58,688 bases of DNA from Methanofastidiosum sp. (GTDB taxonomy: Archaea; Methanobacteriota_B; Thermococci; Methanofastidiosales; Methanofastidiosaceae), in NCBI GenBank assembly GCA_020854815.1, contig JAHKLW010000022.1, positions 1 through 58,688 of the forward strand. The letters are read 5' to 3'. This document shows, one piece after another, positions 29,137 to 37,427 of the stretch (within the stretch, counting starts at the first letter, position 1; the number at the start of each line of letters is the position of its first letter). The translations under genes and the position numbers were made by a program. The notes below the pieces were generated by a model. It did no database searches and was not told the origin of the DNA. It was given only the letters and a program-made list of their open reading frames with translations.

Positions 29137-29259
29137 GTTCAAATAAATAAGTTTTTATAGGCAAATTCCTTAATAATCTTGAATAAATATAGAATTCATA
29201 TCTGTAACTTTGTAAAAGTCTACATAATATTCAATTTATTGGTATATGGGGATATTTTT

Positions 29260-32010
29260 ATGAATAATGAGGCTAGAGCTAGAGAAGACATTGACAAGAT
29301 GCTTGTTGATTGCGGCTGGACTGTTCAGGATTATAAACTAATGGATCTTGGTGCTTCAAGAGGTGTTGCAGTAAGAGAGTTCCCACTCCTTACAGGAATT
29401 GCAGACTACCTCCTTTTTATTGATAGAAAAGCCTGTGGGGTTCTTGAAGCTAAAAGAGTCGGAATACCTTTAGGTGGTGTTGCAGATCAATCCATAAAAT
29501 ATGTTGGAGGTTTGCCTGAAGATATCCCATCTGTTGGCAATCCACTTCCCTTTGTGTACAATAGCACGGGGAAAGAAATTTCATTTGTTGACATGAGAGA
29601 CCCAAGGCGACGCTCGAGAAGAATCTTCTCTTTTCACAGACCTGAAACATTGAAGGAATTTCTATCTGATGAAAAGACGTTGAGAGGCAAGTTGCAAGAG
29701 ATGCCACCACTAATAACTTCTGGATTGCGAGATTGCCAGATTGAGGCAGTTACGAATCTTGAAAGATCATTTAGAGATACAAGACCTCGTGCATTAATCC
29801 AGATGGCAACAGGTTCTGGAAAAACTTTTACTGCAATTAGCTTTGTCTATAGGCTGATAAAACATTCAAATGCAAAAAGAGTGCTTTTCTTAGTTGATAG
29901 GACAAATCTTGGAAAGCAGGCCATGACAGAGTTTAGCCAGTATAGAACTCCAGATGATGGGAGAAAGTTTACTGAACTTTATAATGTTCAGCATCTCTCT
30001 TCAAACGTAATCGACCCCGCAAGTAGGGTTTGTATTTCAACTATCCAAAGAGTCTACTCGATGCTTAGGGGAGAAATCGAAATGGAGAGTGAAACTGAAG
30101 AGCAGTCACTTTTTGACCAAGATATCGATGGAACTCCAGTTGATGTTTGTTACAACCCTTTCATCCCAATTGAAACATTTGATTTTATTATAACAGATGA
30201 GTGCCACAGATCGATTTACAATCTCTGGAGGCAAGTTTTGGAATATTTTGATGCGTTTATTATTGGATTAACAGCTACACCTTCAAAGCAGACCCTTGGA
30301 TTTTTCAATCAGAATCTTGTGATGGAGTATAATCATGAACGGGCAGTTGCTGATGGTGTTAATGTAGGGTATGATGTTTATAGAATTAATACTGCAATAA
30401 CTGAGAAAGGGAGTAGTGTAGAAGCGGGATTTTACATTGATAAGAGGGACAGATTGACAAGGCAGGTTAGATGGGAATCACTTGATGAAGAATTCAAATA
30501 TGAAGGAAGGGACCTTGATAGGTCAGTTGTTGCACCTGACCAGATCAGAACTGTAATAAAAACATTCAAGGAAAGATTGTTTACCGAGATATTTCCGGGG
30601 AGAAAAACAGTACCTAAGACTCTAATCTTTGCAAAAGACGATTCCCATGCTGAGGATATTGTAAATATTATAAGGGAAGAGTTTGGCCAGGGAGATGAAT
30701 TCTGTAAAAAGATTACTTACAGAACTATGGGCGAGAAACCTGAAGACCTGATAGCAAGTTTCAGAAACTCTTACAATCCAAGGATAGCCGTAACTGTTGA
30801 TATGATATCAACTGGTACTGACATAAAGCCTTTAGAGTGCCTTATATTCATGCGAGATGTTAAATCAAGAGTTTATTTCGAGCAGATGAAGGGAAGGGGA
30901 ACAAGAGTGATTAATCCCACCGATTTGCAAATGGTAACTTCTGATGCAAGAAATAAAACTCATTTTGTGATAATAGATGCTGTTGGAGTATGCGAAACAG
31001 ACAAAACTGATTCAATGCCGCTTGAGAGGGCTAGGAATGTACCTTTAGAGAAGCTTCTTATGGGGATGGCTCTAAGAAAAAAGAACAAAGATATGATATC
31101 CTCCCTTGCAGGTAGACTCGCCAAAATTGAAATAGAAATGAATGAAAAGGAGAAACAGGAGATTCAAAAGATTGCTGGAAAGAACATGAACGAGATTGTA
31201 AATGAACTTCTTGATGCTGTTGATCCAGATAAAACTATTGAAACTGCATGTAAGATGTTCGATACGACTGAGCCCACAAAGGAGCAGCTGAACAAGGCTA
31301 CAGAAGAACTCCTAAACAAAGCAAGTAAGCCGTTTGATAATCCAAAGTTTAGGACGAAGATTATTGAGATAAAAAAGAAGAATGAGCAGATAATTGATAA
31401 TATCAGTAAGGATGAGATTCTATTTGCAGGATTTGATGACCTTGCAGCTGAAAAAGCAAGAATAATTGTAAATAATTTCAAGAACTTTATAGAAGAAAAT
31501 AAAGATGAATTAACAGCACTTCAAATTATTTATAGCAATCCATACCCAACAAGATTTCTAACTTATGATGCTATTAAGGAGCTTGCTGAGGCAATAGAAA
31601 AGCCGCCTTATTACCTTACAACGGATAAGTTATGGGCTGCATATGAGAAGCTAGAAAAATCTAAGGTGAGGGGTGCGGGGCCTCATAAATTACTTACGGA
31701 TATTGTATCTCTCCTAAAATTTGAACTTGGAGAAATTCAAGTCCTTGAACCTTTTTCGTATACGGTAGATAAGAGATTTGAAGATTGGATTTCGAAGAAG
31801 AAAAAGGAAGGCGTAACTTTTACCGCGGAACAGTTAGAATGGCTTAGAATGATAAAAGATCACATTTCTACTTCAATGAGTATTTCTAAGGATGATCTTG
31901 AACAGACCCCATTCCACAACAAAGGTGGACTTGTTAAGGCGAATAAAATCTTTGATGGAAAAATTGATAATGTCATGAAGGATCTTCAAGAAGCACTGGT
32001 GAGTAAGTGA
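29260..32010 (+). CDS. hsdR: Type I restriction enzyme subunit R (HsdR)
   Basis: 916 residues from the ATG at 29260 (GGGGATATTTTT before it). N-terminal nuclease domain with LLFIDRKACGVLEAKRVG, the D...ExK core (about residues 50-70). Superfamily 2 translocase motifs: QMATGSGKTFTAISF (Walker A, about 181-190), ITDECHRSIYN (DECH, about 313), IGLTATPSK, FAKDDSHAEDIV, VTVDMISTGTDIKPLECLIF and FEQMKGRGTRV. A helical C-terminal domain binds the methylase complex. The frame is open further upstream to a TTG, but conserved sequence begins at ARAREDIDKML. It is the first gene of hsdR-hsdS-hsdM; its stop overlaps the hsdS start as GTGA. Confidence 0.95.
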   Translation: MNNEARAREDIDKMLVDCGWTVQDYKLMDLGASRGVAVREFPLLTGIADYLLFIDRKACGVLEAKRVGIPLGGVADQSIKYVGGLPEDIPSVGNPLPFVYNSTGKEISFVDMRDPRRRSRRIFSFHRPETLKEFLSDEKTLRGKLQEMPPLITSGLRDCQIEAVTNLERSFRDTRPRALIQMATGSGKTFTAISFVYRLIKHSNAKRVLFLVDRTNLGKQAMTEFSQYRTPDDGRKFTELYNVQHLSSNVIDPASRVCISTIQRVYSMLRGEIEMESETEEQSLFDQDIDGTPVDVCYNPFIPIETFDFIITDECHRSIYNLWRQVLEYFDAFIIGLTATPSKQTLGFFNQNLVMEYNHERAVADGVNVGYDVYRINTAITEKGSSVEAGFYIDKRDRLTRQVRWESLDEEFKYEGRDLDRSVVAPDQIRTVIKTFKERLFTEIFPGRKTVPKTLIFAKDDSHAEDIVNIIREEFGQGDEFCKKITYRTMGEKPEDLIASFRNSYNPRIAVTVDMISTGTDIKPLECLIFMRDVKSRVYFEQMKGRGTRVINPTDLQMVTSDARNKTHFVIIDAVGVCETDKTDSMPLERARNVPLEKLLMGMALRKKNKDMISSLAGRLAKIEIEMNEKEKQEIQKIAGKNMNEIVNELLDAVDPDKTIETACKMFDTTEPTKEQLNKATEELLNKASKPFDNPKFRTKIIEIKKKNEQIIDNISKDEILFAGFDDLAAEKARIIVNNFKNFIEENKDELTALQIIYSNPYPTRFLTYDAIKELAEAIEKPPYYLTTDKLWAAYEKLEKSKVRGAGPHKLLTDIVSLLKFELGEIQVLEPFSYTVDKRFEDWISKKKKEGVTFTAEQLEWLRMIKDHISTSMSISKDDLEQTPFHNKGGLVKANKIFDGKIDNVMKDLQEALVSK

Positions 32011-33347
32011 ATGGTGAGCTACCCAAAGGTTGGGTTTGGACGAGCTTAGAAAATTGCGTTGATATTCTAGATAGTCAAAGAAAGCCAATTAATTCAGAAG
32101 AACGTCAAGAAAGGATTCTAAATAAAAACGAATCTGATCTTTATCCTTATTATGGGGCCACTGGACAAGTTGGTTGGATTGATGGATATATTTTTGATGA
32201 AGAACTTATTCTACTTGGCGAGGATGGTGCGCCTTTCTTAGATTTTACCAAAGACAAATCCTATCTCATTAAAGGTAAAACTTGGGTTAATAATCATGCT
32301 CATGTTTTAAGGGCTATAAAGGATATTAGTTTTAATTCTTATATTTGCCATTATCTTAATAGTTTTGATTATCGTAATTACATTACTGGGACAACTAGAT
32401 ACAAGCTTAATCAATCTCAAATGAGAAAAATAATGATTCCCCTCCCACCATTAGCCGAACAACAAAGAATAGTAAACAAAATAGAAGAGCTCTTCACAAA
32501 TCTTGACAAAGGTATTGAATCTCTAGAGCAAGTCAAATACAAACTTAAAATATATCGCCAAGCTATTTTGAAATATGCAATGGAAGGAAAACTCACTGAA
32601 AAGTGGAGAGAAAATAATAAAACATTTTTTGAGGAGTCTAATTCTTTTGATAATAAAGAAGTTATTGCATTTGAAATTCCAAGTAGCTGGAGATTAGTAG
32701 AATTAAAAGATGTATCAATTATAATATTAGGACAATCGCCACCCTCGTCTACATATAATGAAAAAAGAATAGGTTTACCTTTTTATCAAGGTAAATCTGA
32801 ATTTGGTTTAATCTATCCAACTCCAGTTAAGTGGTGTGCTTTTCCAAAAAAAATTGCAGAGAAAGGGGATGTCTTAATTTCAGTTAGGGCTCCTGTTGGC
32901 CCTACAAACATCTGCCCTGAAAAATCTTGTATTGGAAGAGGATTGGCTGCAATTAGAGGATTGGGGAATATCGATAATAAATTTATTTTTTACTTATTAA
33001 GGAATATTGAAAAGGATATTTCTTCCCAAGCTACAGGTACGACTTTTGAAGCAATTAGGGGAGATGTACTAAAAAAATTGATAATTCCACTCCCTCCTCT
33101 CGAAGAACAGCAAGAAATAGTTAACAGAATAGAAAAACTATTCTCTCTTGCAGACCATATAGAAGAAACCGTCAGCTCTAAGCTAGAACAGTCCAAAACT
33201 CTTCGCCAAAGCATCCTAAAAAAAGCTTTTGAAGGGCAGCTTGTTCCACAAGATCCTAATGATGAGCCTGCAGAAATTTTACTAGAAAAAATAAAAATGG
33301 AAAAGTTAAATAAAGGAAAAGCAATTCAGGAGAAGCTGGTACAATGA
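32007..33347 (+). CDS. hsdS: Type I restriction-modification specificity subunit HsdS
   Basis: 446 residues, starting GTG inside the hsdR stop (GTGA). Two target-recognition domains (about 5-140 and 222-365) each begin with the aromatic start (LPKGWVWTSL; IPSSWRLVEL) and end in a conserved spacer helix (LPPLAEQQRIVNKIEELF; LPPLEEQQEIVNRIEKLF). Each spacer is followed by a coiled coil with LRQSILKKAFEGQL-type sequence. TRD1 is very AT-rich compared with hsdR/hsdM, a usual sign of domain exchange. The bipartite DNA target cannot be predicted by eye. There is no recombinase or inverted partial hsdS nearby, so no phase-variation cassette. Confidence 0.94.
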   Translation: MNGELPKGWVWTSLENCVDILDSQRKPINSEERQERILNKNESDLYPYYGATGQVGWIDGYIFDEELILLGEDGAPFLDFTKDKSYLIKGKTWVNNHAHVLRAIKDISFNSYICHYLNSFDYRNYITGTTRYKLNQSQMRKIMIPLPPLAEQQRIVNKIEELFTNLDKGIESLEQVKYKLKIYRQAILKYAMEGKLTEKWRENNKTFFEESNSFDNKEVIAFEIPSSWRLVELKDVSIIILGQSPPSSTYNEKRIGLPFYQGKSEFGLIYPTPVKWCAFPKKIAEKGDVLISVRAPVGPTNICPEKSCIGRGLAAIRGLGNIDNKFIFYLLRNIEKDISSQATGTTFEAIRGDVLKKLIIPLPPLEEQQEIVNRIEKLFSLADHIEETVSSKLEQSKTLRQSILKKAFEGQLVPQDPNDEPAEILLEKIKMEKLNKGKAIQEKLVQ

Positions 33348-34795
33348 GTAACGAAACGCTTGCAGTCCAAAAGCTTTGGAACTATTGCAATGTCCTAAGA
33401 GACGATGGAGTAAGTTACGGCGATTATGTAGAGCAACTAACATACTTATTATTTCTAAAAATGGATGATGAGCAAACTAAGCCTCCGTTTAGCAGAGAGT
33501 CAAAGATACCAAAAAATCTTAACTGGGAGAGCCTTCTAAAAAAGGATGGTGATGAGCTTGAAGTTCATTACAGGCATATTCTAGAATCTTTAGGGAAAGA
33601 AAAGGGGATGATAGGTGTCATCTTCAGAAAAGCCCAGAATAAAATTCAGGACCCTGCAAAACTAAAGAGGCTTGTCATGCTTATTGAAGGAGAAGAAACC
33701 TGGATGGGTATGGGTATCGATGTAAAGGGTGCAATCTATGAAGGCTTACTACAAAAGAATGCAGAAGATATCAAAAGTGGCGCCGGTCAGTACTTCACCC
33801 CTAGAGCACTAATCAAAGCAATGGTTGAAGTGATAAGGCCAAAACCTGGTGAAACTATCTGTGACCCGGCATGCGGGACAGGGGGATTCCTTTTAGCTTC
33901 TTATGACCTAATCTCTAAATATCCGCTAAATGTTGAAGAGAAGAAATTCTTAAGAGAAGGCACATTTCACGGTTGGGACATTGTGGATAGTGTTGTAAGG
34001 CTCTGCACAATGAACCTCTACTTGCATGGGATTGGTGGAGAGGAAAGCCCAATAGTAACTGACGATGCACTTGCATCTGACCCTGGAGATAGGTTTGACA
34101 TAGTGCTCACTAACCCGCCATTTGGAAAGAAGAGTAGCATTACTATAGTAAATGGCGAGGGAAAGATTGAAAAAGAATCACTGACATACCAGAGAAATGA
34201 CTTCTGGGCAACTACTTCTAACAAGCAGCTAAACTTCCTGCAGCACGTTAAAACTCTACTAAAAATAAATGGCAGGGCCGCAATAGTCGTCCCTGATAAC
34301 GTGCTTTTCGAAGGTGGGGCTGGAGAAACACTCAGAAAAAGACTCTTACAGCAGTGTGATGTCCACACACTTTTAAGACTCCCAACTGGGATCTTCTATG
34401 CGCAAGGTGTAAAGGCAAACGTGCTATTCTTTGATAAAAGGCCGGCAAGTGAAAAACCTTGGACAGAAAAACTCTGGATATATGATCTAAGGACTAACAT
34501 TCACTTCACCCTGAAAACAAACACTCTAAGATATGAAGATCTAGTAGACTTCATAAAATGCTATAATCCAGAAAATAGGCACGAGAGACGAGAAACTGAA
34601 AGGTTCAAAGCATTTACCTATGGAGAGGTCATGAAAAGAGACAAAACAAATCTAGATATCTTCTGGCTAAAAGACAATAGCCTTGGCGACTCAGAAAATC
34701 TTCCAGACCCAAAGCTACTAGCTTTAGAAATTGCAGAAGATTTAGAGTCGGCGCTTGACGAGTTTAAAAGAATATATGAAGAATTAGAAGAATAA
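33344..34795 (+). CDS. hsdM: Type I N6-adenine DNA methyltransferase HsdM
   Basis: 483 residues, ATGA-overlapping the hsdS stop. N-terminal HsdM domain (LWNYCNVLRDDGVSYGDYVEQLTYLLFLKMDD), then the methyltransferase with GAGQYFTPRALIKAMVE, motif I CDPACGTGGFLLASYD (about 172-187) and catalytic motif IV NPPFG (about 256-260). The complete set implies a functional R2M2S enzyme, which would leave m6A at a bipartite site in this genome. Confidence 0.96.
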   Translation: MSNETLAVQKLWNYCNVLRDDGVSYGDYVEQLTYLLFLKMDDEQTKPPFSRESKIPKNLNWESLLKKDGDELEVHYRHILESLGKEKGMIGVIFRKAQNKIQDPAKLKRLVMLIEGEETWMGMGIDVKGAIYEGLLQKNAEDIKSGAGQYFTPRALIKAMVEVIRPKPGETICDPACGTGGFLLASYDLISKYPLNVEEKKFLREGTFHGWDIVDSVVRLCTMNLYLHGIGGEESPIVTDDALASDPGDRFDIVLTNPPFGKKSSITIVNGEGKIEKESLTYQRNDFWATTSNKQLNFLQHVKTLLKINGRAAIVVPDNVLFEGGAGETLRKRLLQQCDVHTLLRLPTGIFYAQGVKANVLFFDKRPASEKPWTEKLWIYDLRTNIHFTLKTNTLRYEDLVDFIKCYNPENRHERRETERFKAFTYGEVMKRDKTNLDIFWLKDNSLGDSENLPDPKLLALEIAEDLESALDEFKRIYEELEE

Positions 34796-34799
34796 TAAA

Positions 34800-35099
34800 T
34801 TAAAGAAGCTTATTCTCCTTCAATATTCTGACAACTTCATCATAAACTTCGTTTAGATCCGTCTCGCTTTTTGCACCGGTAATAATGTACTTGCCATTTT
34901 TGTATATTGTAACGTGCCTTCTTTCTCCATTAATCATGACCTTTACAAGGAGCGCAGGATATGTCTCTGGATTGTATTCGGCATGAACAAAGTCAATGAT
35001 ACTGTATGCCTTTACTATATCTACATCATTTGGAAATCTTCCAGTTGCAACAATATTTGTTATTATAGGTCTTGTCCCAAAGGGTACATCTTTCTTCAT
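34800..35099 (-). CDS. Single-repeat TBP-like protein (half-TBP)
   Basis: 99 residues that align with one repeat (about 85-90 residues) of TATA-binding protein. PIITNIVATGRFPNDVDI corresponds to IVNIVASxDL. Later, HAEYNPETYPALLVKV corresponds to xYNPExFPGLVYR, and VTIYKNGKYIITGAKSETD corresponds to xLIFxSGKxVxTGAKS. Full TBP has two such repeats, and this gene stops after one. The two positions that hold DNA-intercalating phenylalanines in TBP are both tyrosine here (YPA; IYKNGK). A homodimer could mimic a full saddle, but DNA binding is unproven. ATG 35099 is chosen because GGATGATTTTG precedes it; another ATG lies three codons upstream. Convergent with hsdM (4-nt gap). Confidence 0.75.
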   Translation of the reverse strand: MKKDVPFGTRPIITNIVATGRFPNDVDIVKAYSIIDFVHAEYNPETYPALLVKVMINGERRHVTIYKNGKYIITGAKSETDLNEVYDEVVRILKENKLL

Positions 35100-35291
35100 C
35101 AAAATCATCCTTCATTAGCTATATTATTAGTATTGTTGGCACTAGTATATAAGCTTTTATTTTTAACTTCTTTAAAATATAGCCCCTTGACTATTTTTTT
35201 CATAAAATTAAATGAAAAACAGTAATAAATATATATTAAGAACTATATTTAGTATTGACATGCTAATAATTTTATTATATGGGCGCAACTC

Positions 35292-36074
35292 TTGAAAAAA
35301 AAATTTGAAAAAGAAATAAGTTTTAATAATAACGAAATTGATTCTAAAACTTTAAAGATATTCTTTGATAAATCTCCATTTGCAATTCAATCATTAAATG
35401 AATCTGGCCATATTCTAAATGTAAGTAAAGCATGGCTTGATATCTTGGGGTATTCAAAAGAAGATATAATTGGAAAATCATTTCGTGATTTCCTCTCTGA
35501 TAATTGTAAAGACCATTTCAGTGAATGCTTTCCTAAATTTAAAGAAATGGGCCAAATAAGTGATGCAGAATTAGAAATGAAAAAGAAAAATGGGGATATA
35601 GTCTTTGTATCTTTTAATGGTAAAATTATTCATGATGACAAAGGAAATTTTAAACAAACTTTCTGTTTCTTGAGCGATATAACTAATCGTAAGACAATCG
35701 AGACAGAATTGAGTGAAAGCGAAGAAAAGTTTAGAGAGCTTTACAATAACATGAGTACTTGTATGGCAATCTATCAAGCCATTGATGACGGGCAGGATTT
35801 CGTTATCAAAGGCATTAACAAGGCAGGAGAGGAAAAAAGCAAAGTAAAAATAGAAGAAATCAAAGGCAAACGTGTTTCAGATGTATTTCCAAGTGTAAAA
35901 GAAATCGGACTATTTGATATTTTTAAGAAAGTCTATGCCACCGGCAAACCTGAATATCTTCCAACAAAGTTTTACAAGGATAGTAGGATGTCCCATTGGG
36001 TAGAAAACCTGTTTTTAAAAATCTTGGATTCTTTCCTATTACCTCTGAAGGTTTATACCCAGTTAAATCGATAA
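35292..36074 (+). pseudogene. 5' part of a PAS sensor gene, truncated at a rearrangement
   Basis: Two PAS domains are readable: about 20-140 (IFFDKSPFAIQSLNESGHIL, LGYSKEDIIGKSFRDF) and 145-240 (FRELYNNMSTCMAIYQAI, DVFPSVKEIGLFDIFKKV). The similarity stops abruptly after DSRMSHWVEN; in related PAS domains that motif continues into another strand and a DIT ending. The remaining 24 residues are antisense sequence of the facing PAS gene. The start is also uncertain: TTG at 35292, or ATG 35279 with one base too many or few in the A9 run 35295-35303. Any kinase or output domain has been lost. Confidence 0.75.
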
Positions 36075-37427
36075 ACTTTGGATTTACATAATTTATGAAT
36101 CCATTTTTATCTGTTATAACAACTATTGTCGGGGCTTGCTCAATAGCGTTGTATAAAAGTTTTATTTCTCCTTCTAATCTTTTTCTATCTGTGATATCTC
36201 TTGATATGTTCAAGATTACGTTTTTCCCTTTCAGTTTTAGTTTTGTTGCAACTACTTCCACGTAAAATAATCTTCCATGTTTATCAATATCTAATACTTC
36301 AAATGGTTTTTCTCCATATTTTTCTAATTCTCTTTTTATTGTCTTACCGGCTTTACCTCTTAACTCGGGAGCTTGTAGGTCTGGAATTATTAATGAAAGA
36401 AACTCATTTTTTGAATAGCCAAATTTTCTACACGCCGCTTCATTTACATCAATTATTGAATCATCTTCAGCTACTAAGAGCATGGGATCATTGGCCTTCT
36501 CAAAATATAGCCTAAATCTTTCTTCACTTTCCTTTAGTTCTTCTTCCATATTTTTCCTATCAGTAATATCATTACCTACCGAAAGTAGAGCCTTAATATC
36601 TCCTTTTTTATCCAGTATAGGTTTATTGGTCCAATAAATCCATGCCCGTTCTCCATTCTTTTTTATGTTTTCATTAATGTGCCGAGTATATTTCTCTACA
36701 TCAAAATAAATCTCAGATATCAGATTTTCTAAAATTCTTCCTGTAGATTCAATTCGAGGGATACACGTTTCTTGCCATTTTTTTCCTATTAGTTCTTCCT
36801 CTTTGTAACCAAAAAAATCCAATCCAAATTCATTCATTGAAAGAATTATTCCATCTTTGTCAAATTTTGCAATTATGCTATTTGCATTTTCCACTAGCTC
36901 CCTATACTTCTCTTCACTTTTTCTTAGTTTTTCTTTTTCACGTTCAAGTTCATATTTTTTCAAAACATTGTCAAGGTCTGTTTCTATGATTGTCTTAAAC
37001 TCATTGATTAAATCTTTATAAGTTGTGGCCTTTGGATTATCTTTGTAATCAAGGACACATATTGTCCCAAAAATTGATTATCTGGCCACTGGAGAGGAAA
37101 TCCAAGGTAATACACCATTCCAAGAGGTATATCTGGATTGTGATCCCACTCTATATCTTTAGTAGCATCAGGGACTAACAAGGACTCATGCTTTTGCATT
37201 ACAGTTTCACAATAAAGCCCGGTATTAAGATTAGCTCTTTCACCCTTATGATAAGGATTACCTTCAGTTTTACTAGATATAAAAACTTCAATCTCAGGAG
37301 GGTCAGCCTTCATTATTAAACCGGCTGGAACTCCGATTTGTTTCGCCATTAAATTCACAATTCTCTGCCATTTATCTAATATTTCTTTAGGCAAATCAGG
37401 CTTTTCTGTAATATGTAAATCGGGCAT
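35923..37427 (-). pseudogene. GAF-PAS-PAS-PAS sensor gene, frameshifted and 3'-truncated
   Basis: A GAF domain begins at ATG 37427 (MPDLHITEKPDLPKEILDKW, GYPY-like GLYCETVM, YYLGFPLQWPDNQF). At the T5 run 37069-37073 the frame slips by one. The next frame continues GAF (GTICVLDYKDNPKATTYKDL) and runs without interruption into KKYELEREKEKLRKSEEKY and three PAS domains (NSIIAKFDKDGIILSMNEFG; NDPMLLVAEDDSIIDVNEAA; PTIVVITDKNGFINYVNP). The third PAS breaks off at PRFLKTGFLPN near 36000, where antisense of the plus-strand PAS gene begins; the frame ends at 35923. No transmitter domain remains. Both lesions together make it non-functional as a full-length sensor. Confidence 0.78.

Follow-up and report, generated by a model that had tools for sequence, protein, structure and literature searches.

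Why would an archaeon that already has an ordinary TATA-binding protein (TBP) also keep a gene for a single TBP repeat, with tyrosine at both DNA-kinking positions, next to a restriction operon? This question is raised by a stretch of 58,688 nucleotides from Methanofastidiosum sp. (contig JAHKLW010000022.1 of assembly GCA_020854815.1), hereafter the window, in which the gene, here called the half-TBP, faces a type I restriction-modification (RM) operon. A first, sequence-only reading of the window treated the hsd neighbor as incidental and the tyrosines as a curiosity; comparison shows that both features co-occur across archaea. By sequence and gene context, TBP repeats of this Tyr type recurrently adjoin type I, III and IIG RM, bacteriophage exclusion (BREX) and PglX/BrxHII systems, and the hsd neighborhood of the half-TBP is not coincidental. 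We regard it as an even call that the half-TBP belongs, as a free-standing protein, to a distinct Tyr-type TBP branch that accompanies, and most likely controls, archaeal DNA-methylating defense systems.

The gene is a complete small one, as first described, and consists of one open reading frame (ORF) encoding one TBP repeat:

34800..35108, minus strand: Tyr-type half-TBP gene, one ORF, 102 amino acids from the ATG at 35108 or 99 from the ATG at 35099; Pfam TBP, 1.4e-16

The second in-frame ATG (M4, at 35099) is where the sequence-only reading had placed the end of the gene, and a start there is plausible because the AGGATG directly 5' is invariant in the eight species of the genus that carry the gene and because a homolog from another archaeon (G476) has the N-terminus MKINIDKPFGTKP. 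TBP (PF00352) is the sole significant Pfam family, scoring 60.5 bits against a cut-off of 22.9 (homologs, 58.7–62.8 bits), with no non-TBP family scoring better. The match covers one repeat at residues 15–98, and the second repeat is absent from the 102-residue chain. NCBIfam matches were TBP models only, and PDB sequence matches with E values better than 1e-10 were TBPs without exception. The host genome also encodes an ordinary full-length TBP of 191 residues (G000:C49). In alignment with it, Y50 and Y69 of the half-TBP occupy both intercalating-Phe positions, the NIVA, YNPE and TGAKS landmarks are all kept, as had been claimed, and the canonical DNA-face residues N18, V20, I75 and T77 are retained. 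The half-TBP is unmatched in PADLOC and PHROGs; searches of viral contigs with the half-TBP or alignment A3, and of phage records with P0001, gave zero matches.

AlphaFold 2, supplied with an alignment of 15 sequences that included viral TBP repeats, returned a model with a predicted local distance difference test (pLDDT) score of 83.4 and the element order strand–helix–four strands–helix; a model from seven near-identical sequences (pLDDT 50.7) was set aside. The top 44 PDB matches to the retained model were all TBPs, with template modeling scores of 0.66–0.76 by query length, and the next plausible fold match was a TBP-fold DNA glycosylase. The half-TBP is predicted to adopt the TBP half-saddle that the sequence-only reading had expected, with significant PDB matches to TBPs only.

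A maximum-likelihood tree was built from 69 TBP repeats, 22 of them Tyr-type (four half-TBPs and 18 first repeats); the shortness of the sequences and the length of the branches limit what the tree, and the approximately unbiased (AU) tests on it, can show. The 22 Tyr-type repeats group together as a single clade (ultrafast bootstrap 84), to which neither canonical nor DPANN repeats belong. Descent of the half-TBPs from the organism's own TBP was rejected by the AU test (p = 0.006). Repeat 1 of the haloarchaeal defense TBPs clusters across phyla and repeat 2 with local, ordinary haloarchaeal repeat 2, and this difference in grouping hints that a host repeat 2 acquired the Tyr lobe by fusion.

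A first survey of 396 archaeal genomes gave a half-TBP in G372, 51% identical to that of the window, and a related frameshifted copy in G304, both loci being picked from sequence only. The former sits after a YgjP-like peptidase and HsdR of a type I RM system; the latter overlaps the end of a different type I HsdR. A second survey added G476, where the half-TBP converges on a type III Res/Mod pair, and G537, where 4 bp separate it from BrxL in a BREX locus (BrxB-BrxC-BrxL). The tally for these four genomes is type I RM twice, type III RM once and BREX once. G476 and G537 belong to one family (f135), in which 2 of 45 genomes have the gene, each by a different defense system; it is therefore patchy in this family, like mobile defense genes. 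Full-length TBPs from G530, G107 and G371 were likewise selected by sequence or residue typing before their context was known. The first lies directly 3' of hsdM-hsdS-hsdR, the second adjoins a DUF1156 methylase and the third, with Y/F at the two sites of repeat 1, precedes an hsd cluster by 124 bp. All seven chromosomal loci chosen in this way are beside methylase-type defense (7/7), which represents fewer than seven independent events, as G372 and G304 share a genus and G476 and G537 a family. No strong half-TBP match came from searches of two more archaeal groups, of 36 and 398 genomes, and typing of their best-scoring loci yielded a single non-Phe TBP, that of G371. No defense genes were found near two Thermococcus F/F TBP paralogs. 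Adjacency to hsd genes in relatives, raised by the sequence-only reading, is thus strongly positive and extends beyond hsd to type III RM and BREX. As a separate observation, an EVE-domain gene (modified-base reader type) adjoins the defense TBP in two unrelated genomes (L169, 9401–9832, plus strand; L252, 6953–7393, plus strand).

A tblastn search of plasmids led to haloarchaeal full-length TBPs resembling TbpC. The contexts of those with non-Phe residues comprise HsdR, a PglX-like methylase with a BrxHII-like helicase, BREX-5, DUF1156 and methylase loci; in two haloarchaeal tailed viruses, the TbpC-like TBP adjoins a type IIG enzyme or an Eco29kI-type RM system. All 15 plasmid and virus TBPs whose repeat 1 lacks the Phe pair adjoin defense genes, and repeat 2 is F/F in every one of them; of seven plasmid TBPs that have Phe at that repeat's first site (F/F in six, F/Y in one), none does (Fisher p = 5.9e-6, for loci sampled down a ranked list, phylogenetically non-independent and with context read from a few kilobases). 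An unannotated Natribaculum locus, in which 31 bp separate an Eco57I-type enzyme from the Y/Y TBP that follows it, fits the same pattern. Marine viral contigs L176, L178 and L180 encode ordinary F/F two-repeat TBPs that are not near defense, the 8.5 kb inspected showing no adjacent RM genes. The tailed-virus records L124, L125 and L174 place a TbpC-like TBP directly beside RM genes, and the TBP of L174, an uncultivated virus, has an in-frame stop. In Haloquadratum walsbyi plasmid PL100 (L099, 2992–3951), two TBP remnants, encoded on opposite strands, lie upstream of hsdM/hsdS.

In the window itself, the restriction operon noted at the outset is a complete hsdR-hsdS-hsdM set by PADLOC and Pfam, pointing toward the half-TBP:

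29260..32010, plus strand: hsdR, type I restriction subunit (PADLOC REase_I, 1.1e-54; Pfam EcoEI_R_C, 2.2e-38); the mechanical ORF opens at 29179 and the start at 29260 is taken from relatives
32007..33347, plus strand: hsdS, type I specificity subunit (PADLOC Specificity_I; Pfam Methylase_S)
33344..34795, plus strand: hsdM, type I N6-adenine methyltransferase (PADLOC MTase_I, 1.1e-193; Pfam N6_Mtase, HsdM_N)
35141..35166, minus strand: conserved promoter block TTAAAAATAAAAGCTTATATACTAGT, upstream of the half-TBP gene (alignment of eight species)

The hsdM and half-TBP genes converge, with stop codons 4 bp apart. The promoter block, of about 25 bases, lies 5' of the half-TBP and is nearly unchanged across all eight species; from established knowledge of archaeal promoters, we take it to be a transcription factor B (TFB) recognition element plus a TATA box. 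The immediate neighbors of the half-TBP are hsdM and a PAS sensor. In this region, a short PAS-domain frame (35292–36074, plus strand) overlaps the terminal part of a PAS gene on the other strand (35923–36963, minus strand), and several relatives have longer sensor kinases at this place (35292–36963).

The half-TBP is present in eight of ten genomes of the genus (89–96% identity) and was absent from the remaining 105 genomes of the phylum. Its absence from the other two (G003 and G008) is uncertain because their best hsdM match is partial and appears to be cut by a contig end. Mean dN/dS is 0.047 for the half-TBP (28 pairs) and 0.027 for hsdM; on these sequence comparisons, the half-TBP is under strong purifying selection, and its N-terminal region is near-invariant in the eight species. 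The convergent arrangement with hsd is common to seven of the eight genomes, the exception being G005. By annotation, the half-TBP of the window and of these seven genomes thus qualifies as a defense-linked Tyr-type lobe in the sense proposed here, namely one with a methylase system as neighbor. In G009, an in-frame TGA together with an ambiguous base interrupts hsdM (L040, 3929–5321), probably an assembly flaw.

What might such a protein do? A DNA methylase is the one component that every linked system shares. The placement of the TBP gene varies (convergent, divergent with a separate promoter, first gene 5' of an operon, or last gene), a pattern more readily expected of a trans-acting regulator than of a fixed subunit of a complex; the half-TBP's own conserved promoter also counts for a regulator. 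Because the methylase is the common denominator, the position is variable and TBP is a natural scaffold for an archaeal promoter switch, we favor transcriptional control, with evenly balanced confidence, over a nucleic-acid adaptor within a complex, which we consider possible but distinctly less probable. As we envisage it, the half-TBP would pair with itself through the edge of TBP strand S1, forming a four-tyrosine saddle. The dimer would bind AT-rich promoter DNA, bending it less than TBP does or differently, and may thereby repress or time transcription of the methylase/nuclease operon and possibly of its own gene. Where an ordinary second repeat is present, as in the two-repeat versions, it could retain binding to TBP-type DNA and to TFB, creating a dedicated or a blocking initiation factor. 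For the half-TBP, self-pairing, binding to DNA, contact with TFB and any regulatory effect are inferred. Extended to the whole clade, our proposal is tentative, a little short of even: one ancient Tyr-substituted TBP clade, free or fused to a normal repeat, would regulate unrelated methylating systems (RM I, II and III, and BREX), and viruses would carry it with their own RM.

Several observations weigh against this proposal. The foremost is G005, a genome estimated to be 99% complete, which retains the half-TBP at the same locus without the hsd operon. The order there is transporter, half-TBP, PAS kinase, and a search of the genome found no hsdM match and no convincing N6-methylase. Either G005 lost hsd, or the half-TBP was there first and hsd was inserted next to it afterwards; because G005 is basal in an elongation-factor tree and lacks hsd, the half-TBP in this genus may be older than the hsd insertion. 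This is the main fact opposing strict dependence of the half-TBP on hsd. Comparison of the half-TBP and hsdR promoters revealed no common DNA motif. Support for the Tyr-type clade is moderate, and AU tests did not reject a haloarchaeal in-situ origin (p = 0.058) or a union with DPANN halves (p = 0.078); an identity of the half-TBP with the latter was set aside, as DPANN halves keep Phe and branch apart. A Halobacterium delta-tbpC strain had no apparent phenotype (PMC2121645). Lastly, the TBP gene overlaps the BrxHII gene in several haloarchaeal operons, an arrangement that also suits a complex subunit.

That overlap, in operons of the PglX-BrxHII-TBP type, introduces the alternative that survives best, although we think it less probable than control of transcription: the Tyr-type lobe could be a structural part of the defense complex, an adaptor for duplex nucleic acid that positions or licenses the methylase or nuclease, and no transcription factor. 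It would account for the BREX operon in which the TBP gene stands between PglX and PglZ, and precedents exist, as Tyr-bearing single TBP lobes bind duplexes in bacterial RNase H3, one such lobe forms part of the anti-phage nuclease RnlA (PMC7221094) and TBPs occur in the TOTE and TALON conflict systems, according to a citing paper (PMC12458937). However, the linked nucleases and complexes are unrelated (types I, III, IIG and BREX), which makes a shared binding partner difficult to envisage; in several lineages the gene stands apart, convergent or divergent, and is served by its own promoter; and in G005 it persists without hsd.

That same persistence in G005 would favor a second alternative, which we judge unlikely, in which the half-TBP competes with TBP or TFB genome-wide, as a global repressor or stress factor, and the hsd neighborhood is an accident of defense islands. 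Vertical conservation in the genus with dN/dS of 0.047, unlike a typical mobile RM accessory, also agrees with it. Yet same-clade repeats adjoin defense in every other lineage examined, and the two occurrences in family f135 are each beside a different defense system. That the half-TBP is a degenerate, functionless relic of a duplicated TBP is highly improbable: both Phe residues and the second repeat are lost, and broken copies are visible in Haloquadratum PL100 and G304, but purifying selection in eight species (its dN/dS largely refutes a pseudogene), the conserved promoter, the near-invariant N-terminal region, tyrosines that are conserved rather than drifting and a widespread clade all argue against decay.

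To our knowledge, little is known of how archaea time the expression of a self-methylating immune system upon entry into a new host. As a mark of methylating systems across archaeal phyla, a TBP lobe is a directly testable candidate regulator, and would suggest a transcription-factor module dedicated to the control of immunity in archaea. It offers a reason for the "loss" of phenylalanines in haloarchaeal TbpC, earlier seen as possible decay. The signature YxxGKYIxxG may help to locate new archaeal defense loci, and a natural one-repeat TBP offers a way to ask if a symmetric TBP dimer is functional.

Some of these elements were already known, namely TBP in TOTE/TALON and the missing Phe of TbpC. 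TbpC was reported to lack the N-terminal Phe pair, interpreted as possible defunctionalization, in a text that nowhere mentions restriction (Becker et al. 2014, PMC4230888). Our search of the open-access literature found no paper tying archaeal Tyr-type TBPs to RM or BREX; neither the link to methylating defense nor the half-TBP form appeared there. TOTE and TALON (Aravind/Iyer 2022, as cited in PMC12458937) resemble our locus in encoding a TBP-domain protein within an antiviral conflict locus. They carry TPR-CSD/OB genes, with TALON described mainly in Chloroflexota, whereas TPR and OB/CSD genes are missing from the genes flanking the half-TBP, for which Pfam gave EamA, HsdR, HsdS, HsdM and PAS.

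Canonical archaeal TBP (PF00352, NCBIfam PRK00394) shares with the half-TBP its fold and superfamily, about 30% identity and several DNA-face residues; the half-TBP differs in having one repeat instead of two and Tyr for both kinking Phe, in a genome with a separate housekeeping TBP. The single-repeat TBPs of small-genome DPANN-like archaea (L079–L098; families f10, f12, f32, f72 and others) are also complete one-repeat genes, present as one or two per genome. Unlike the half-TBP, they retain both Phe, fall at another place in the tree and are apparently the sole TBP of their genomes, where our search gave no full-length TBP match; in these archaea, half-TBPs probably pair, as homo- or heterodimers, to make the working TBP. 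Bacterial RNase H3 (N-domain) and the anti-phage protein RnlA likewise contain single TBP lobes, with Tyr or His at a key loop position (PMC7221094), but these belong to larger nuclease proteins and are far more distant in sequence. The haloarchaeal TbpC-like TBPs fall in the same clade by their first repeat, have that repeat without the intercalating Phe pair (mostly Y/Y, as in the half-TBP) and adjoin defense genes at the examined loci, as the half-TBP does; they keep an ordinary F/F second repeat, whereas the half-TBP is the Tyr repeat only. In its proposed role, timing methylase against nuclease expression, the half-TBP would resemble the control (C) proteins of bacterial RM systems, which are helix-turn-helix proteins, but would be made from the archaeal transcription machinery.
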